Source: Burkholderia sp. Bp8992
GTDB taxonomy: Bacteria; Pseudomonadota; Gammaproteobacteria; Burkholderiales; Burkholderiaceae
DNA: 64,000 nucleotides
Assembly: GCF_003853705.1 (NCBI RefSeq)
Contig: NZ_QTQI01000012.1
Span: 62,001-126,000, forward strand
Direction: 5' to 3'
The notes below the pieces were generated by a model. The model did not search any database and was not told the origin of the DNA. It was given only the letters and a program-made list of their open reading frames with translations. Positions 5,329-27,129 of this stretch are shown one piece after another. Each line of letters starts with the position of its first letter. Position 1 is the first letter of the stretch. The translations under genes were made by a program, and so were the position numbers.

Positions 5329-7650
5329 ATGGACGACAACACTTCCGATCTCTTTGCCAGCCCCGACGCGCCCGAGAGCGACGCGCTGACGCTCGGCAAC
5401 TACGCGGAGCAGGCGTATCTCAGCTACGCGGTCAGCGTCGTGAAGAGCCGCGCGCTGCCCGACGTGTGCGACGGCCAGAAGCCGGTGCAGCGCCGGATCC
5501 TGTTCGCGATGAACGAAATGGGCCTCGGGCCCGACGCGAAGCCGGTGAAGTCGGCGCGCGTGGTCGGCGACGTGCTCGGTAAATATCACCCGCACGGCGA
5601 CCAGTCGGCGTACGACGCGCTCGTGCGTCTCGCGCAGGATTTCTCGCTGCGCTACCCGCTGATCGACGGGCAGGGCAACTTCGGCTCGCGCGACGGCGAC
5701 GGCGCGGCGGCGATGCGTTACACGGAAGCGCGCCTGACGCCGATCTCGAAGCTGCTGCTCGACGAGATCGACCAGGGCACGGTCGACTTCATGCCGAACT
5801 ACGACGGCTCGTTCGAGGAGCCGAAGACGCTGCCGAGCCGCATGCCGTTCGTGCTGCTGAACGGTGCGTCGGGCATCGCGGTCGGCCTTGCGACCGAAAT
5901 CCCGTCGCACAACCTGCGCGAAGTCGCGGCCGCGGCGGTCGCATTGATCCGCAATCCGAAGCTCACGCACGCGGAGCTGATGAACCTGATTCCCGGCCCG
6001 GATTTCCCCGGCGGCGGCCAGATCATCTCGAGCGACACCGAAATCTCGGCGGCCTATGAAACGGGCCGCGGCAGCCTGAAGGTGCGCGCGAAATGGAAGA
6101 TCGAGGATCTCGCGCGCGGCCAGTGGCAGCTCGTCGTCACCGAGCTGCCGCCGAGCACGTCGGGCCAGAAGGTGCTCGAGGAAATCGAGGAGCTGACCAA
6201 CCCGAAGCTCAAGCTCGGCAAGAAGACGCTGACGCCCGAACAGCTCAACACGAAGAAGGCGATGCTCGACCTGCTCGACGCAGTGCGCGACGAGTCGGGC
6301 AAGGAAGCGGCGGTGCGGCTCGTGTTCGAGCCGAAGTCGCGCACGATCGACCAGACGGAATTCGTGAACACGCTGCTCGCGTACACGAGCCTCGAGTCGA
6401 ACGCGACGCTGAACCTCGTGATGATCGGCGCCGACGGCCGGCCGGGCCAGAAGGGCCTGCTGACGATCCTCGACGAGTGGGTGAAGTTCCGCCAGCTGAC
6501 GATGACGCGCCGTTGCCGCCATCGTCTCGCGAAGGTCGACGACCGCATCCACATCCTCGAAGGGCGGATGATCGTCTTCCTGAACATCGACGAGGTGATC
6601 CGCATCATCCGCGAGTCGGACGAGCCGAAGTCCGCGCTGATGAGCGCATTCGGCCTCAGCGAGCGTCAGGCGGAAGACATCCTCGAGATCCGGCTGCGCC
6701 AGCTCGCGCGGCTCGAGAAGATCAAGATCGAGAAGGAACTCGAAGCGCTGCGCGACGAGAAGGCGAAGCTCGAGGAACTGCTCGCGAACGAAAGCGCGAT
6801 GAAGCGGCTGATGATCAAGGAGATCGAGGCCGACGCGAAGCAGTACGGCGACGATCGCCGCACGCTGATCCAGCAGGAAAAACGCGCGACGTTCGAGGCG
6901 AAGGTGGTCGACGAGCCGGTGACGGTCGTCGTGTCGCAGAAGGGCTGGGTGCGTGCGCTGAAGGGCCACGGGCTCGACCCGGCCGCGTTCACGTTCAAGG
7001 CCGGCGACAGCCTGTACGCGGCGTTCCAGTGCCGCACGCCGGACCGGCTGATCGCGTGGGGCAGCAGCGGCCGCGTGTACTCGGTCGACGTGTCGGTGCT
7101 GCCGGGCGGGCGCGGTGACGGCGTGCCCGTCACATCGCTGATCGAGCTCGAATCGGGCTCGCACCTGATGCACTACTACGCGGCGCCGGCCGACCAGCAA
7201 CTGCTGCTCGCGTCGAGCAACGGCTTCGGCTTCCTCGCGAAGGTCGGCGACATGGTGAGCCGCGTGAAGGCCGGCAAGGCGTTCATGACCATCGATGCGG
7301 GCGCGGTGCCGCTCGCGCCGATGCCGGTGCTGCCGAACGCGACGCAGGTCGCGTGCCTGTCGAGCGGCGGCCGTCTGCTCGTGTTCGGGATGGACGAGAT
7401 GAAGACGCTGTCCGGCGGTGGCCGCGGCGTGATCCTGATGGCGCTCGACGACAAGGAAACGCTCGTGCAGGCGCTCGCGATCGATCCGGCCGGCGTCGTG
7501 CTGATCGGCACGGGCCGCGGCGGCAAGGCGCAGGACGAGACGCTGTCGTACGCGGGGCTCGCGCCGCACATCGGCAAGCGCGCCCGCAAGGGCCGCGCGC
7601 CGGAGACGAAGCTCAAGGTCGTCAACGAACTGCGTCCGCTGCTCGGCTGA
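5329..7650 (+). CDS. parC: DNA topoisomerase IV subunit A
   Basis: A 773-residue breakage-reunion subunit. The catalytic tyrosine is Y131 in AMRYTEARL, preceded by the winged-helix region with [15 protein letters not shown]. The tower and coiled coil follow, then a shortened C-terminal beta-pinwheel (from about 500) without a GyrA box, as expected for ParC. It sits 69 bases after parE, probably in one transcript. At the position of E. coli ParC Ser80 this protein has Gln92, and at E. coli Glu84 it has Asp96; these are the quinolone-determining positions. The Shine-Dalgarno is weak. A clear terminator follows at 7676. Confidence 0.97.
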
Positions 7651-20094: not shown

Positions 20095-21993
20095 ATGGCA
20101 CATGAAACGATGAGCTTTCAGGCAGAGGTCAAGCAACTCCTCCACCTGATGATCCATTCGCTCTACAGCAACAAGGAAATCTTCCTGCGCGAACTGGTGT
20201 CGAACGCGTCCGACGCGGCCGACAAGCTGCGTTTCGAAGGGCTCGCGGACAACGCGCTGTACGAGAACGATCCGAACCTGCGCATCCGTATCGGCTACGA
20301 CAAGGCCGCGCGCACGATCACGATCGACGACAACGGCATCGGCATGAGCCGCGACGAGGCGATCGCGAACCTCGGCACGATCGCGCGCTCGGGCACCAAG
20401 GAATTCTTCACGAAGCTGTCCGGCGACCAGCAGAAGGATGCGGCGCTGATCGGCCAGTTCGGCGTCGGCTTCTACTCGGGCTTCATCGTCGCGGACAAGA
20501 TCACCGTCGAGACGCGCCGCGCGGGCCTGCCGGCGAACGAAGCCGTGCGCTGGGAAAGCGCGGGCGAGGGCGATTTCACGATCGACGCGATCGAGCGCGC
20601 GCAGCGCGGCACGACGATCACGCTGCACCTGCGCGAAGGCGAGGACGAACTGCTGTCGTCGCACCGCCTGAAGTCGATCATCCAGAAGTACTCCGACCAC
20701 ATCGCGCTGCCGATCCTGATGCAGAAGGAAGAGTGGGATCAGGAAAAGGGCGAGATGGTCCTGAAGGACGAGGACGAGACCGTCAACCAGGCGAGCGCGC
20801 TGTGGACGCGTTCGAAGAGCGACGTCACCGACGAGCAGTACACGCAGTTCTACCAGCACATCGCGCACGATCACCAGGATCCGCTCACGTGGACGCACAA
20901 CCGCGTCGAGGGCCGCAGCGAATACACGCAGCTGCTGTTCGTGCCGGCGCACGCGCCGTTCGATCTGTGGAACCGTGACTATCGCGGCGGCCTGAAGCTG
21001 TACGTGAAGCGCGTGTTCATCATGGACGACGCCGAGCAGCTGCTGCCGCAATACCTGCGCTTCGTGAAGGGCGTCGTCGATTCGGCCGACCTGCCGCTGA
21101 ACGTGTCGCGCGAGATCCTGCAGGAAAGCCGCGACGTGAAGGCGATCCGCGAAGGCGTGACGAAGCGCGCGCTGTCGATGCTCGAAGAGCTCGCGAACGC
21201 GGAAGAGGATGCCGGCAAGGAGAAGTACAAGACGTTCTGGAGCGCGTTCGGCCAGGTGCTGAAGGAAGGCCTCGGCGAAGACCACGCGAACCGCGAGCGC
21301 ATCGCGAAGCTGCTGCGCTTCGCGTCGACCCACGGCGATACCGACGCGCAGGACGTGTCGCTTGCCGACTACGTGTCGCGCATGAAGCCGGAGCAGAGCA
21401 AGATCTACTACGTGACCGCCGATACCTGGCAGGCCGCGAAGAACAGCCCGCATCTCGAAGTGTTCCGCAAGAAGGGCGTCGAGGTGCTGCTGCTGACCGA
21501 CCGCGTCGACGAATGGATGCTGTCGTTCCTGCACGAATTCGACGGCAAGCCGCTCGCGAGCGTCGCGCGCGGCGACCTCGACCTCGGCGAGCTGAACGAC
21601 GAGGAGAAGAAGGCGCAGGAAGAGGCGGGCGAAGCGATCAAGCCGGTCGTCGAGAAGATGAAGGAAGCGCTCGGCGACAAGGTGAAGGAAGTGCGCGTCA
21701 CGTTCCGCCTGACCGATTCGCCGTCGTGCCTCGTCGCGGACGACAACGACATGAGCGGCTACCTGCAGCGGATGCTGAAGGCGGCCGGCCAGAACGCGCC
21801 GGCGATGCAGCCGATCCTCGAGATCAATCCCGAGCATGCGCTCGTGAAGCAGCTGAATGCCGACAGCGCTGATTTCGGCGACTGGTGCCATCTGCTGTTC
21901 GATCAGGCGCTGCTGGCCGAAGGCGGCACGCTCGACGATCCGGCGAGCTTCGTGAAGCGGACCAACGCGCTGCTGCTGTCGCGCGCCGCGTGA
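20095..21993 (+). CDS. htpG: Hsp90-family chaperone HtpG
   Basis: A 632-residue cytoplasmic ATP-dependent chaperone. The GHKL ATPase domain has [21 protein letters not shown] and GQFGVGFYS. The middle domain includes [14 protein letters not shown] with the catalytic arginine. The C-terminal dimerisation domain ends without the eukaryotic MEEVD tail. The length matches E. coli HtpG (624). AGAGGA precedes the ATG, and a strong RpoH-type promoter lies upstream. ubiC follows with almost no gap. Confidence 0.97.
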
Positions 21994-22001
21994 ACGCACG
22001 C

Positions 22002-22598
22002 ATGCGCTTCGACGGCGGCCAGGCCGGCTGGCGGGAGACGCCGCGGCCCGGCTGCTCGCTCGACCAGCGCGACTGGCTGACGCGCGGCGGGTCGCTCACC
22101 GCGCATCTCGCGCGGCTCGGCTGCGTGAACGTGCGCGTGACGCGCGAGGCCGTCGACTGCCCGTGGTTCGACGAGCCGGACGCGCTCGCCAGTTCGCCGC
22201 GCGCGCCGATGTGGGTGCGCGAGGTGATCCTGTCGGTCGACGGCACGCCGTACGTCGCTGCGCACAGCATCGCGCCGCTCGCCGCCAGCAAGGGCGTGTG
22301 GCAGGCAATGCGACGGCTGCGCACGCGGCCGCTCGCGGAATTGCTGTACAGCGATCCGCAGGTCGAGCGCTCGTCGCTCGTCAGCCGGCGCGTGATTGCG
22401 GGCCATCCGCTGTATGCGCTCGCGACCCATGCGCTGCAGGGCGAGCGTGCGCCGCATGCGTTCGCCGCGCGGCGCTCGGTGTTCCAGCGTCACGGCAAGC
22501 CGTTGATGGTCACCGAGTGCATGCTGCCGGCGCTGTGGCGCCATCTCGCCGCGCACGGCGACGGGCCGCGCTCGGCTGGCCCGGGCGGAGGCGCGTGA
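22002..22598 (+). CDS. ubiC: Chorismate pyruvate-lyase
   Basis: A 198-residue enzyme that converts chorismate to 4-hydroxybenzoate and pyruvate, the first committed step of ubiquinone synthesis. The substrate arginine is in MWVREVIL, and the catalytic glutamate region is VTECMLP. Other conserved segments are [10 protein letters not shown] and [11 protein letters not shown]. Two starts are possible: the ATG at 22002, or a GTG at 21990 overlapping the htpG stop; neither has a good Shine-Dalgarno. Its stop overlaps the next start (TGATG at 22596-22600), so it is coupled to the glycosylase gene. Confidence 0.9.
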
Positions 22599-23074
22599 TG
22601 CTGCAGGGCTTTCCGCCCGTCGTCTCGCCGGATACGCACACGATGATCCTCGGCAGCTTTCCGGGCGAGGCGTCGCTCGATGCCGCGCAGTACTACGCGC
22701 ATCCGCGCAACCAGTTCTGGCGGTTGCTGGGGGCGGTGCTCGGCGAGCCGACGCTTCATGAACTGCCGTACGACGCGCGGCTCGTGTGCGTCCTTACGCA
22801 CGGCATCGGCATCTGGGATGTCCTCGATGCGTGCCATCGGCAGGGCAGTCTCGATTCTGCGATCCGCAACGCGAAGCCGAACGACTTCGATTCGCTGCGC
22901 CAGCATGCGCCGTTGCTGAGGCGCGTGTGCTTCAACGGCAAGACGGCCGGGCGATTTGCCGACGTGATCGGCCAGGCCGGGTACGAGACGCTCGTGCTGC
23001 CTTCGTCGAGCCCGGCAAATGCGATGCTTTCGTTCGAGCAGAAGCTCGTGCAGTGGCGCGCACTTCGCGCCTGA
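22598..23074 (+). CDS. Mug/HDG-type DNA glycosylase (deoxyinosine/uracil)
   Basis: A 158-residue member of the uracil-DNA glycosylase superfamily, closest to the hypoxanthine-DNA glycosylase (family 6) pattern. Motif 1 is ILGSFPGEASL (17-27), followed by QYYAHPRNQFWRLLG with the catalytic asparagine region. The second motif is PSSSPANA near the C-terminus. It would excise deaminated bases to start base-excision repair. Translation is coupled to ubiC by a one-base overlap. A decayed partial copy lies 2 kb downstream at 24964-25036, beyond the ParA/DUF4238 genes. Confidence 0.85.
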   Translation: MLQGFPPVVSPDTHTMILGSFPGEASLDAAQYYAHPRNQFWRLLGAVLGEPTLHELPYDARLVCVLTHGIGIWDVLDACHRQGSLDSAIRNAKPNDFDSLRQHAPLLRRVCFNGKTAGRFADVIGQAGYETLVLPSSSPANAMLSFEQKLVQWRALRA

Positions 23075-23235: not shown

Positions 23236-24039
23236 TCAGGGCTTCACCTCGCCTTGCCGGGCGCCCGTGACCGAGGCAATGCGACTTTGTGCGGCGACGA
23301 GTTGATCATCGGTGGTCGCCACCAGCCACAGACGCGCATGCTCCTCGATCCGACGGTTGTGGTCCTTCAACGGCCCCATCGCGGCAGCGGCCTTCCAGAC
23401 CACCGGGCCGACCCGGCTGCTCCTGCCCGACGGCGCGCCTACCAGCAGGCAGTAAGGTCCCAGCGGAAGCGATACGAACGGAAGCGCCGGACTGGCGATC
23501 ACGCGCCAGTCGATGAAGGGTGTGTCGCTGATCAGCAGCGGCGCGGGCAAGCCGTAGAGCACGCTGAAATCGTACAGCGCCAGCTGCTCCCGCATGCCGA
23601 CGTAAGTCCGCCGGATGTCGTCGACCACCGCCGCGCGGATCTCGTCCTCGAACATGGGTTCCTGCGCGTAGCGGGCCAATGCCTTGCGGGCCTCCCATTG
23701 ATACGCGCTGAACAGGCCGATCTCCACGCAATCCTGCACCGCGCGCTGAACCTCCGCCACGGAACCGGCTTCCGCGGGCGTGCCCAACTGAGCCGCCCGC
23801 AAAAAGCGGGCAAGTCCCGCCTCGTGGATCGCGGGACCCTCCGCGGATGCGTCGTCGGCAGCGTTCTTGCCCAGGGGCACGTAGGTGTATTTCTCGGCTG
23901 CGAAATGCGATTTCTTGCCTTCGTCGAACTTGATTTCGCCATCGACGCAGTCGAGATAGCGCGTCCCGATTCGGCCGTGCTCCCAAACCCAATTTTTCAG
24001 GAACGGACGGAGTGGATGCAGTCTGTCGTGATCGGCCAT
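23236..24039 (-). CDS. DUF4238-like protein, second gene of the ParA-linked pair
   Basis: A 267-residue soluble protein. It resembles DUF4238 in outline: an N-terminal FLKNW segment followed by a strand-rich stretch ending FAAEKYTYV, a helical middle, and a late LLISDTPFIDW then FVSLPLGPYCLLV, like the DUF4238 SDNPV...PLSP pattern. The typical HYIPQFYL start is missing, so the assignment is tentative. The start at 24039 has a near-perfect Shine-Dalgarno (GGAGG, 4 bases away); a longer reading from 24090 lacks one. It follows the ParA-like gene by 75 bases, most likely in one transcript. The function is unknown; DUF4238 genes are often found in accessory or defence-type regions. Confidence 0.7.
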   Translation of the reverse strand: MADHDRLHPLRPFLKNWVWEHGRIGTRYLDCVDGEIKFDEGKKSHFAAEKYTYVPLGKNAADDASAEGPAIHEAGLARFLRAAQLGTPAEAGSVAEVQRAVQDCVEIGLFSAYQWEARKALARYAQEPMFEDEIRAAVVDDIRRTYVGMREQLALYDFSVLYGLPAPLLISDTPFIDWRVIASPALPFVSLPLGPYCLLVGAPSGRSSRVGPVVWKAAAAMGPLKDHNRRIEEHARLWLVATTDDQLVAAQSRIASVTGARQGEVKP

Positions 24040-24114
24040 TGAACCTCCAAGTTTTCCCGGTATGAGCCATTCCAGCAACCCGCCGCACACTCCGCACCGT
24101 CGCGGGGGCCCGCG

Positions 24115-24810
24115 CTACAACGCGAGCGTGCCCAGCTCCTCATAGGTACGATGCAGCCAGACCTTGACGCGCTGCCGCTCCAGCAAGCCGAGCCCCGTGG
24201 CCGCGCGGTCGGGATGATTGACCGCCGCCCAGAAGCTCGCGCTTTGTCGATCGATCTTCTGCATGGTCGTATCGGGCAGGCGGCGCAGCGTAATCACGCT
24301 GGCGCCAAGGGCCTCGGCCCTCTCGCGTTCGCCGGATGCCTCCAGAATCTCGAAGCGATCGCCGCGGACTTCATTCAGCACCAGCACCAGCTTGATTCGT
24401 CCGCCGAATTCGTCGAGCCATTGCCGCAGCAGATCGACCGAATCGCGTCCGGTGTCCATCACGTGCCACCACGTCAACGTGAGGCCGTGCTCTTCGGCAA
24501 AATCGACTACGTCCGAATCGTCGAGCCACTTGGCGAGCGACTGCCGCGTCTGGGCCGCGAGATCGACCAGTATGCGCCGCTGCGGATCTTCGAGCGCCGA
24601 TTCCATGACCGGATCGAGGCTGTCATGCTGGTCGAGCACGGCAGGCGCGGCAAAATCGGCGTAGAACCGCAGTAGCGCGCCGTGCGATCGGTCGGTATCG
24701 AAGCCTACGAAGGGCATGCTCCGATCGATGAAGTACTGGGCCAGCACGCGGGCCGCGAGCGATTTGCCGACGCCGCCTTTTTCCCCGCCGATGAAGTGGA
24801 TGTGACTCAT
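24115..24810 (-). CDS. ParA-like (MinD/MobD-type) P-loop ATPase
   Basis: A 231-residue protein starting MSHIHFIGGEKGGVGKS. The deviant Walker A is KGGVGKS with signature lysine K11 and K16. The A' aspartate is in FDTDRSHG (D38/D40), and Walker B is RILVDLAAQT (D83). It resembles short plasmid or conjugation-linked ParA proteins (MobD/TraL type) rather than chromosomal Soj, and no ParB is nearby. The ATG at 24810 is chosen because the P-loop begins at once; the in-frame extension upstream is not protein-like. It is first of a pair with the DUF4238-like gene. Possible roles are plasmid or phage related positioning, or ATP-gated control of the partner; none is proven. Confidence 0.82.
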   Translation of the reverse strand: MSHIHFIGGEKGGVGKSLAARVLAQYFIDRSMPFVGFDTDRSHGALLRFYADFAAPAVLDQHDSLDPVMESALEDPQRRILVDLAAQTRQSLAKWLDDSDVVDFAEEHGLTLTWWHVMDTGRDSVDLLRQWLDEFGGRIKLVLVLNEVRGDRFEILEASGERERAEALGASVITLRRLPDTTMQKIDRQSASFWAAVNHPDRAATGLGLLERQRVKVWLHRTYEELGTLAL

Positions 24811-24945: not shown

Positions 24946-24963
24946 TGTCAAACTGAACAAAAT
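24946..24963 (+). repeat. possible remnant of an insertion-sequence end
   Basis: TGTCAAACTGAACAAAAT resembles the short terminal repeats of IS21-family elements in form (GTCAA...TGAACA). It directly abuts the glycosylase remnant. Only one copy is seen and no istA/istB is present, so this is weak. Confidence 0.2.
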
Positions 24964-25036
24964 GGCAATCGGTTCTGGCGATTGCAGGGGGCGGTGCCTG
25001 GCGGATGCGATGCCGTCGTTCGAGCAGAAGCCGGAG
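24964..25036 (+). pseudogene. internally deleted remnant of the Mug/HDG glycosylase gene
   Basis: Bases 24964-25003 match the intact gene at 22706-22745 at about 33 of 40 positions (the NQFWRLLGAVLG coding region). Bases 24994-25031 match 23008-23045 at about 32 of 38 positions (the ANAMxSFEQK coding region), in the same frame and ending in a stop at 25042. About 265 bases between the two parts are missing. It is a broken second allele, probably marking the far junction of the inserted ParA/DUF4238 genes. Confidence 0.7.
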
Positions 25037-25189
25037 CTTTGACGCGGCCGTTGCTTCACATTATTGCGTCGCGTGGGAGTCGGGACGATTCAGCCGTTCA
25101 ACAGAGCGCTGCCGCGGCGTATCGATGACGGAAGGAAGGGCGCTGCTGACGAACGGCGACCGCATAGGCTCGTGCGTCGCGCCCGACGC

Positions 25190-25444
25190 TCAATCGTCCT
25201 TGCCCCATCGCCATCCGGGCTTCTCGCCCTTGAGCCAGCAGACGGCGGTGAGCAGCGCGACCAGTACCACGATGCAGGCGCCGTACGCCACCGGCGAGCG
25301 TTGTGGCGGCGCGAGCCATGCACTCGCGAGGATGCCGATCGCGAACAGCAGCAGCACGACCCACCCTTGCCACGCGATAGGCAATCCCCATCCCCATCCG
25401 TAGCGTTTCGCGGGAAACCAGATTTTCTTGTCGTTCGAGGTCAT
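25190..25444 (-). CDS. small two-helix membrane protein
   Basis: An 84-residue protein of unknown function. A short cytoplasmic N-terminus with KRYGWGWGLP is followed by helix 1 (about 26-43), a short PPQRSP loop, helix 2 (about 51-69) and a basic tail ending GWRWGKDD. Trp/Gly-rich YGWGW proteins of this size are widespread as uncharacterised inner-membrane proteins in Proteobacteria. The start at 25444 has GAGG 6-7 bases upstream; an ATG at 25462 overlaps the toxin gene. It lies just downstream of the toxin gene and could be cotranscribed, though no functional link is evident. Confidence 0.72.
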   Translation of the reverse strand: MTSNDKKIWFPAKRYGWGWGLPIAWQGWVVLLLFAIGILASAWLAPPQRSPVAYGACIVVLVALLTAVCWLKGEKPGWRWGKDD

Positions 25445-25458
25445 GCGATTCCTCGTCG

Positions 25459-25767
25459 TCAATGGTAGTCGCTTTCTCGTTGGTGGCGGACTGCGAGGAT
25501 CGTCACCGTCCGGCTGTCATCGATCTCGAATAACGCGACGTAGCCGGATACGCCGAATGGAATGATCAGTTCCCGGAGAAACGGCATGGACGGATGAACT
25601 TTGCGGCAGGTAAACGGCGACGATTCGAGCGTGGCGATTCCTGACGTTATGGCCGCCAACGCGCGTTCTGCCACTTCGACCTCCGCATCGTCACGGTCGA
25701 CGACGAAAGCATAAAGCCGGTCCAGGTCGTCCGATGCGGCGGACGTAAAGCGAACCGTACAGGTCAT
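25459..25767 (-). CDS. RelE/ParE family toxin
   Basis: A 102-residue small protein with the ParE/RelE superfamily layout: an N-terminal strand VRFTSAASDDLDRLYAFV, two helices (residues 8-48), then a beta sheet with FLRELIIPFGVSGYVALFEID and ending VTILAVRHQRESDYH. The C-terminal VRHQRE segment is typical of ParE toxins, which poison gyrase; RelE types cleave mRNA. The target cannot be told from sequence. Its start overlaps the antitoxin stop (ATGA at 25764-25767), giving translational coupling. It is second in a two-gene operon, the usual antitoxin-first order. Confidence 0.85.
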   Translation of the reverse strand: MTCTVRFTSAASDDLDRLYAFVVDRDDAEVEVAERALAAITSGIATLESSPFTCRKVHPSMPFLRELIIPFGVSGYVALFEIDDSRTVTILAVRHQRESDYH

Positions 25768-26042
25768 CGAGCCTGTCGCTTTCTGTCACGCAGCGTATCG
25801 AGTCGTCGCCCCAGTCGTTCCAGCACTTCGACCGAAGAGACATACTCGCCGGTCCGTCGAGCATCGTCGCGTGATGCTATGCCGCGCGCGATGAATTCGC
25901 TTTGGAAACGTCGACGTTCGACGCCTTCGCGAATCGATTGCTCGACGAAGCTCGACAGCGTTTCGCCTTCCTGAAGGACATTCTCGGCGGCATCGCGTAA
26001 TTCCGGTTCGACCCGGACAGACGGAAAAGTCGCAGTTTTCAT
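25764..26042 (-). CDS. antitoxin, YlcI/YnfO-like
   Basis: A 92-residue protein starting MKTATFPSVRVEPELRDAA, then a helical stretch with GETLSSFVEQSIREGVERR and a second helical region carrying ASRDDARRTGEYVS. The N-terminal strand plus helix pair looks like a ribbon-helix-helix DNA-binding domain, and the C-terminal half would wrap the toxin. The family is annotated as YlcI/YnfO-like antitoxins. GAGG precedes the ATG at 26042; a longer reading from 26102 lacks support and crosses the operator. A perfect 20-bp palindrome lies 12 bases upstream. Confidence 0.82.
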   Translation of the reverse strand: MKTATFPSVRVEPELRDAAENVLQEGETLSSFVEQSIREGVERRRFQSEFIARGIASRDDARRTGEYVSSVEVLERLGRRLDTLRDRKRQAR

Positions 26043-26211: not shown

Positions 26212-27129
26212 ATGACCCGACTGATCAAGCGCGCGTCCGCCGAGGCGCGTGCGTTCAAGCAAGGCAAGCCGTCCTCGTACAACGGCTCCGAAAAACTCCA
26301 GCCGCCGCGCGTGAAGCGCCGCCCGGACATCGACGAACACGACGACGTGCCGGTGCTCGAAGCGCCGCGCAAGCCGCGTTTCGCGCCCGTGACGTTCTCC
26401 GAAGAGGGCGGCGTGCGCTTCCTGCACTTCGGCACGGAATGGGTGCAGGGCGCGATGCGGATCTCGAAGCCGCTGCACATCGAACTCGAATACGCGCAGC
26501 AGATGATGGCGTGGCTGCTGTTCCTCGAAACGCCCGAGCGGATCGTCCAGCTCGGGCTCGGCACCGGCGCGCTGACCAAGTTCTCGCACCGTTTCCTGCC
26601 GAACGCGAAGGTCGAGGCCGTCGAGCTGAACCCGGCCGTGATCGTCGCCGCGCGCACGATGTTCGCGCTGCCGTCCGACGACGCGCGTCTCGTCGTGCAT
26701 GAAGCCGACGCGTGGGACTTCGTCAACGACCCGGCCAACCGCGGCACCACGGGGGCGATCCAGATCGACCTGTACGACGCGACCGCGCGCGGCCCGGTGC
26801 TCGACAGCGTCGCGTTCTACCGCGCGGTGCGCGGCTGCCTCGCCGACGCAGGCATCGCGACGATCAACCTGTTCGGCGATCATCCGAGCTTCGTACGCAA
26901 CATGAAGCACCTGAACGCGGCATTCGATCACCGCGTGATCGCGCTGCCCGAAGTGCACGACGGCAACCGGATCGCGATCGCGTTCTCGGGCCCTGCGCTC
27001 GACGTGCCGTTCGCGCAGCTGGACGCACGCGCGACGCTGATCGAGGACACGCTGAAGCTGCCCGCACGCAAGTGGGTGAAAGCTTTGAAAGAAACGACCG
27101 GCGCCCGCGACGCGTCGTTCGCGATCTGA
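26212..27129 (+). CDS. spermidine synthase-like methyltransferase-fold protein
   Basis: A 305-residue protein with the SpeE/polyamine synthase Rossmann fold. The cofactor loop is VQLGLGTGALTKF, followed by VEAVELNPAVIVAAR and the acidic IQIDLYDATARG. The first 70 residues are basic and unlike the usual N-terminal beta-hairpin domain. The aspartates expected in true spermidine synthases are not all evident, so it may be one of the many SpeE-like proteins of other function. The start at 26212 is supported by position but has a weak Shine-Dalgarno. It is a single gene. Confidence 0.8.
   Translation: MTRLIKRASAEARAFKQGKPSSYNGSEKLQPPRVKRRPDIDEHDDVPVLEAPRKPRFAPVTFSEEGGVRFLHFGTEWVQGAMRISKPLHIELEYAQQMMAWLLFLETPERIVQLGLGTGALTKFSHRFLPNAKVEAVELNPAVIVAARTMFALPSDDARLVVHEADAWDFVNDPANRGTTGAIQIDLYDATARGPVLDSVAFYRAVRGCLADAGIATINLFGDHPSFVRNMKHLNAAFDHRVIALPEVHDGNRIAIAFSGPALDVPFAQLDARATLIEDTLKLPARKWVKALKETTGARDASFAI

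Follow-up and report, generated by a model that had tools for sequence, protein, structure and literature searches.

A ParA-like ATPase gene and its neighbour lie in a scar left by site-specific elements that target a DNA glycosylase gene in Burkholderia

Introduction

Minimal mobile elements of Neisseria are different small cassettes that lie between conserved genes and carry no integrase. The site described here, within a DNA glycosylase gene of Burkholderia, is like them in these respects, going by extracts of the published accounts, but differs in having a recurrent motif and a duplicated end of the target gene. It is also like the defence hotspots of P2 and P4 phages and of Pseudomonas islands, which the excerpted accounts describe as fixed places holding exchangeable small cargo with several defence candidates, but it lies at a host housekeeping gene, and phage gene families are absent from the Pfam families listed for its cargo (25 of 34), a Gp49-type toxin family excepted. 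Nothing on this site was found in the titles and abstract starts of open-licence papers.

Passages of PMC3098194 place TraL (RP4) and MobD (pTF-FC2) in the StbB group, with the sequence KGGXXK[T/S], call StbC an orphan and state that the stability of plasmid R388 does not need StbB. Part of PMC10083194 describes diverse large serine recombinases (LSRs) that share a single conserved target site within the same coding gene.

The window analysed here is a stretch of 64,000 nucleotides from Burkholderia sp. Bp8992, in which a deviant Walker A ATPase gene and the gene that follows it, here called X, had been predicted to form a two-gene accessory module that arrived by insertion. The two genes are cargo in a hypervariable site and lie in a scar left by a family of site-specific elements whose target is a hypoxanthine glycosylase gene, which we call UDG. 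On balance we favour the reading that the locus is a decayed site-specific element that targeted UDG, with the pair as its cargo, the ATPase as a conflict switch and X as a facultative partner.

Results and discussion

The locus in the window

The ATPase gene and X lie between an intact glycosylase gene and a broken copy of it, as had been predicted; the coordinates (Table 1) confirm this placement, and the broken copy, which begins 4 bp past the 17-bp motif, is real but small. X starts 75 bp past the ATPase gene on the same (minus) strand, and GGAGG stands 4 nt ahead of its start (spacing judged by eye), in agreement with the strong Shine–Dalgarno sequence first described. The product of the intact UDG gene scores 187.8 bits in TIGR04274 against a cut-off of 80. 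Judged by its housekeeping flanks the locus is chromosomal, and of the two half-sites only the right one is preserved in the window. The nearest comparison genome, G001, has 36% of sampled words in common with the window. Beside the scar lie a ParE-type toxin gene and a YlcI/YnfO-type neighbour (together 25459–26042), of which relatives have both, part or none.

Table 1. Features of the locus in the window, and positions of the tyrosine recombinase found in related islands
Feature	Position	Strand	Evidence or remark
Presumed htpG, conserved left flank	20095..21993	+	ORF; left of UDG wherever the stretch from a relative reaches
ubiC (chorismate lyase), overlapping the UDG start	21993..22598	+	PF04345, E 3.9e-20
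UDG, intact DNA-deoxyinosine (hypoxanthine) glycosylase gene, target of the element	22598..23074	+	TIGR04274, E 1.2e-55
Target core AACCAGTTCTGGCGG, codon 38 onward of UDG, start of the duplicated 3' copies	22709..22726	+	
X, 267 aa	23236..24039	-	Genera: Burkholderia, Paraburkholderia, Caballeronia
ParA/MinD-type ATPase, 231 aa from ATG, KGGVGKS	24115..24810	-	NF010461 (TraL) and CbiA, both below cut-off
17-bp half-site motif TGTCAAACTGAACAAAA, attR-like element end	24946..24962	+	
Remnant of the displaced UDG 3' end	24967..25042	+	Codon 38 region and last codons, middle deleted (read by eye)
84-aa small protein	25190..25444	-	Adjoins UDG on the right in empty sites
ParE-type toxin	25459..25767	-	PF05016, E 7.1e-14
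YlcI/YnfO-type neighbour of ParE, presumed antitoxin	25764..26042	-	NF041551, E 2.1e-15
speE-like gene (name presumed), conserved right flank	26212..27129	+	ORF
Tyrosine recombinase of three genomes	L172:5601-6236; L174:15628-16221; L204 near 7167-7311 (fragment)		

The ATPase

The deviant Walker A sequence of the original prediction is present as GGEKGGVGKS at residues 8–17 of the ATPase and agrees with the KGGxGK[T/S] form of StbB, TraL and MobD, proteins to which the ATPase is also similar in length. The TraL model NF010461 aligns to residues 1–227 (E 4.1e-8) but yields 32.9 bits against a curated cut-off of 360; since it falls so far under this cut-off, the ATPase is taken as a distant relative and is not filed as TraL itself. 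A CbiA match (E 3.8e-4) is below the Pfam cut-off. When the ATPase was compared by tblastn with 72,556 plasmid records, 926 were matched, 924 of them at less than 60% identity, and MobD or mobilization protein is the name of 16 of the 20 plasmid relatives among the matches listed. Three cyanobacterial plasmids were opened (L205–L207); each has a MobD-like ATPase, 32–35% identical to that of the window, directly followed by a DUF6753 gene, with a relaxase gene in the same stretch. A layout of ATPase plus partner recurs there, and a partner gene likewise follows the ATPase in R388 (StbC) and in the window (X). Judged from sequence, the ATPase belongs, as a distant orphan, to the StbB/TraL/MobD class of conjugation ATPases. 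It is unlike them in that none of seven proteins tested, those of the pair and of the genes directly beside it, matched a relaxase or type IV secretion protein. The predicted lack of a ParB partner holds for the same seven proteins, none of which gave a ParB-like match.

The ATPase matched no PADLOC family, and so no known anti-phage defence model, and no PDB sequence. Its predicted structure has a pLDDT of 53 and returned nothing from a Foldseek search of the PDB at E ≤ 0.001. Two weak relatives were present in phage records, both in Bradyrhizobium phages; viral contigs held no relative of the ATPase or of X and no junction pattern. Both genes look to be under purifying selection: the median dN/dS of the ATPase, over nine sequences (36 pairs), is 0.089, and that of X, over ten sequences (45 pairs), is 0.175. 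Median synonymous divergence over 21 pairs of carriers is 0.160 for the ATPase, 0.234 for X, 0.141 for speE and 0.233 for ubiC. The ATPase value is under that of speE in only nine of the 21 pairs and the two are uncorrelated (rho -0.15, p 0.53, the pairs not being independent), so recent spread of the ATPase is not supported.

Protein X and its pairing with the ATPase

At the thresholds used, X matched nothing in NCBIfam, PADLOC, PHROGs or PDB sequences and nothing above the cut-off in Pfam, where a single line stands below it (Lin1244_N, E 0.062). It had been named as DUF4238-like, a name that we do not retain: PF14022 gave no HMM match, and hhalign put the probability at 0.1% against one DUF4238 protein, a weak test given the shallow profile of X (Neff 1.3). 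The likeness to the DUF4238 family pattern is by eye only, in the SDTPF and LPLGP stretches. DUF6753 was tried and rejected as well (hhalign 0.2%, again with a shallow profile), so in this respect X is unlike the partner on the cyanobacterial plasmids. The mean pLDDT of the predicted structure of X is 37.8. Orthologues in Burkholderia are 79–94% identical, and ten plasmid records carry X at 83–89% identity (seven Paraburkholderia, two Caballeronia and one Burkholderia). No X was found in 369 genomes spread over the class, a sampling of low information.

UDG is carried by all 65 Burkholderia genomes, X by 25, the ATPase by eight and both ATPase and X by six, a co-occurrence for which Fisher's test gives p 0.047 with phylogeny ignored. 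X lies directly downstream of the ATPase in six of the eight ATPase genomes, and every joint case is at the UDG site; over 58 UDG loci, the window included, the site holds the ATPase in nine, X in ten and both in seven. X occurs there without the ATPase in G104, G035 and G005, and in the remaining 16 X genomes it lies at other loci, again without the ATPase. Twenty off-site X loci (16 genome loci and four plasmid records) were compared for neighbours within 2.5 kb: the commonest family, a LysR-like regulator by eye, is present in six at varying distance and strand, and other families in at most three. Having no common neighbour off the site, X behaves as a free-moving single gene, one that at the UDG site also adjoins the ATPase.

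The predicted fixed two-gene module is therefore only partly supported. X does adjoin the ATPase in six of eight genomes, but it is mostly alone elsewhere and two ATPase genomes (G064 and G066) are without it, and co-occurrence in other loci, which had been set as a test beforehand, was not found, as the pair is never together away from the UDG site. In our view the pairing is loose.

These results bear on an alternative account in which the ATPase is a leftover TraL/MobD mobilization gene, no longer engaged in conflict, and X an unrelated, free-moving arrival. The nearest named family is indeed that of conjugal TraL and MobD, with relatives near relaxases on the three cyanobacterial plasmids, and X is present at 16 further Burkholderia loci from which the ATPase is missing, its off-site copies having no common neighbour. 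We regard this account as a serious possibility that nevertheless falls short of probable, because the neighbours tested include no relaxase or type IV secretion gene, because the dN/dS of the ATPase in loci without mobility genes argues for retained function and because X directly follows the ATPase in most of its genomes. In the reading favoured above, the ATPase would most likely work in the manner of StbB, TraL and MobD, as a switch that is driven by ATP and either binds DNA or relaxosomes or sets their position. It would be kept for conflict with plasmids or phages that enter the cell, and X would be its facultative partner. The comparison ties the ATPase to a conjugation-related class and indicates that X should be studied both with and without it.

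The glycosylase site in Burkholderia

The 58 loci compared are that of the window and 57 of the 65 UDG loci in the genus, the other eight having a UDG only 48–53% identical. Empty sites, whose absence from relatives had been named beforehand as the point that would count against the prediction, are common: 22 of the 58 loci are empty or nearly so, with the next conserved gene (the 84-aa gene, ParE or speE) less than 260 bp from UDG, and in 14 loci the 84-aa gene is 26–84 bp away. Up to 7.8 kb intervenes in the other loci, apart from G067, the stretch of which reaches no right flank.

One form of junction recurs among the loci. Fifteen junctions in 14 of the 58 loci consist of TGTCAAAYYGRMCAAAA with at most two mismatches, 4 bp, and a copy of the UDG 3' end from codon 38; the copy has shrunk to a remnant in some of them (G022, G071 and the window). 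To the left of the junction the sequence differs by cargo type, and unrelated cargo has only about 17–21 bp and the codon-38 edge in common. Assigned by position, the units to the left of the 15 junctions are the ATPase in nine, PDC-S02 in two, PDC-M05A in one, a TIR locus in one and units of G080, without a defence match, in two.

Twelve of the 13 exact matches of the motif in the 65 genomes are at the UDG site, and the 13th, in G021, is on another contig without the UDG core; two further motif-like matches at three mismatches lie off the junctions in the 58 loci. Allowing one mismatch raises the count to 25 places, spread over 18 genomes; the UDG site accounts for 13 of them, and 12 are elsewhere. 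The off-site 17-mers of this kind (L128–L131 and others) exceed the single match of the reversed control; the six that were viewed are all without the UDG core, and three resemble one conserved place on other contigs. Over 300 genomes of the order there were three exact matches, as against three for the reversed pattern. The motif was also considered as a sigma-70 promoter, as it holds TTGACA read backwards, and rejected, there being by eye no -10 box at the right spacing.

Related islands in other genera

Ten stretches match a degenerate 33-letter pattern that joins the motif to the core. Seven of them lie in six Burkholderia genomes, and Cupriavidus basilensis KF708, Trinickia and Ralstonia pickettii SSH4 have one each. 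The R. pickettii island is preserved with two ends. On its left, UDG codons 1–37 are followed by the inverted motif (one mismatch in 17) and by the gene of a large serine recombinase, a protein of 588 aa that combines Resolvase and Recombinase domains with a zinc ribbon; the end of this gene is overlapped by an intact UDG, about 33 kb more follow, and the right end is formed by the motif and UDG codons 38–158. The half-sites, about 36 kb apart, are inverted repeats of about 18 bp. The island is thus like LSR elements in its three-domain recombinase at one end, its inverted half-sites, which flank both ends here only, and its fixed site in a coding gene. The UDG elements are unlike other LSR elements in having a glycosylase gene as target and in carrying a complete copy of it.

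The Cupriavidus and Trinickia stretches show UDG, cargo and motif-linked UDG 3' copies. In G868 UDG is followed by what remains of a recombinase gene, interrupted by stops, and then by cargo, the motif (two mismatches) and a UDG 3' copy. Relatives of the recombinase (E ≤ 1e-15) occur at 28 places in 26 of 398 Burkholderiaceae genomes, and at two of these places UDG is within the flanks: one is G868, and the other is the R. pickettii sequence itself, matched at 100% and at identical coordinates of the contig. A second, decayed copy of motif and UDG lies past the right end of the R. pickettii island. Serial copies, at least two with cargo between them, are present in L174 and L142 (R. pickettii SSH4) and in L139 and L175 (Trinickia), and look as if insertion had been repeated at one place.

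Within Burkholderia neither the serine recombinase nor the tyrosine recombinase described below matched any of 57 loci at E ≤ 1. The window, searched with both, gave no match at the locus and one meaningless match elsewhere (E 0.64), so an LSR gene is lacking there. A PF00589 search of six Burkholderia genomes had its nearest match on the UDG contig about 24 kb off (G064). Searches for an autonomous element by way of UDG matched five phage and 19 plasmid records, and the serine recombinase matched 17 plasmid records, none of them above 60% identity. Because the Ralstonia island has two ends with the same motif, the Burkholderia loci are best read as remnants of such elements that have lost their integrase, in contrast to LSR elements proper. 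Together with the empty sites and the recurring junction with different cargo, the island leaves arrival by insertion, as originally predicted, well supported.

The serine enzyme would probably be the acting recombinase of the family, although it is not the sole integrase candidate, since the Ralstonia and Cupriavidus islands share a tyrosine recombinase of about 200 aa. This small enzyme is 80–84% alike in the two islands and has left a trace in G868, and the Cupriavidus stretch has no serine-recombinase match. Even so, we think it rather unlikely that the tyrosine recombinase is the family integrase. Its product has only about 200 aa, and its gene is in the middle of the island. The gene of the serine enzyme directly adjoins the left half-site of the Ralstonia island, and in G868 a serine remnant follows UDG. 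Inverted-repeat half-sites are usual for serine integrases, and those of about 18 bp seen here fit them.

According to the reading that we prefer, elements would insert at UDG codon 37/38 in Burkholderiaceae carrying their own UDG sequence, so that the host keeps a working gene, and the displaced native 3' end, from codon 38 on, would stay at the far end beside the 17-bp half-site. The simplest route to integrase loss in Burkholderia would be recombination of the native UDG 5' piece with the UDG of the element, a step that would remove the recombinase and fix the cargo in place. In this way a mobile element could invade a housekeeping gene, do the host no harm and in time become fixed. A bolder version holds that serine-recombinase islands break UDG, bring an antidote copy, shed the recombinase by UDG–UDG recombination and leave cargo that is permanent and stacked in series, with a scar on one side only, and that the ATPase and X form a new StbB-related system against plasmid transfer or phage DNA; taken as a whole, we hold this version to be rather improbable.

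Relationships among the UDG copies

Compared with the intact Cupriavidus UDG, the UDG carried by the Ralstonia island has 134 of 160 positions identical (84%); compared with its own displaced 3' end it has 92 of 123 (75%). The displaced ends of the two islands are 75% identical (90 of 120), and the intact and displaced copies of Cupriavidus are 80% identical (97 of 121). These values fit UDG copies that travel with the elements.

The comparison within Burkholderia is more mixed. The 3' fragment agrees better than the 3' part of the intact gene with the relationships of the upstream region in five of eight loci, most clearly in G085 (0.79 versus 0.29), and the intact gene does better in G081, G066 and G102. 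The stretch past the fragment is clearly like an empty site in three of nine loci (G105, G081 and G016), weakly so in the window and in G064 (the latter with 3.5 kb of other cargo in between), whereas four show no such likeness; in G085, G073, G066 and G065 the stretch past the intact gene scored higher than that past the fragment.

A rival account is that cassettes between UDG and speE are exchanged by homologous recombination in the conserved flanks only, in the manner of the minimal mobile elements of Neisseria, the motif being the edge of one ancient insertion. The UDG copies are similar enough to recombine, no integrase was found in the Burkholderia loci, and some cargo units (the HigBA-like pair and c16) are without a motif of their own. 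The shared sequence of otherwise unrelated cargo is, however, confined to the motif and the codon-38 edge, the same junction occurs in three other genera, and in the Ralstonia island the motif forms inverted ends with a recombinase at one of them. Exchange of this kind alone is, in our judgement, unlikely to account for the site.

Other cargo at the site

With the window and G067 set aside, gaps no shorter than 600 bp contain 157 ORFs that reach 150 aa, overlapping frames included, and the cargo scan covered 150 of these. There is no recombinase or transposase among the Pfam families listed (25 of 34) for these 150 ORFs. The PADLOC families listed (25 of 40) give matches to NsnA (G001), to a TIR protein (G102; PDC-S66, E 5.5e-22), to PDC-S02 in two members (G026, and G005 by cluster) and to PDC-M05A in two members (G071, and G021 by cluster). 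Further cargo comprises a pair of HTH_37 and Gp49 genes and PhoD, GT87 and AstE-like genes. As candidate defence and toxin–antitoxin genes are included, a conflict role for the ATPase and X is plausible by association. That the two are instead a partition or stability device of the island itself seems very improbable: the Walker A sequence is of ParA/MinD type and a ParE-type toxin gene is next door, but X and the neighbours tested have no ParB-like match, so the pair does not qualify as ParAB, StbB is dispensable for R388 stability in the passages of PMC3098194 cited above, and the locus is chromosomal by its flanks.

Motif and codon-38 edge together make a searchable signature of a chromosomal site in Burkholderiaceae that gathers small, partly defence-like cargo, and the signature suggests which adjoining genes merit testing. 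Three loci may be noted individually. G014 has at its UDG site another ParA-like ATPase gene (AAA_31) with an uncharacterized neighbour of 338 aa (L098:6867-8914). Around the junction of motif and UDG in G102 lie a TIR-domain gene, a gene of 274 aa and a patatin-like phospholipase gene (L056:3952-7944), possibly a defence locus. The UDG site of G001 holds genes for an NsnA/GmrSD_N protein and a HEPN protein (L050:3070-4908).
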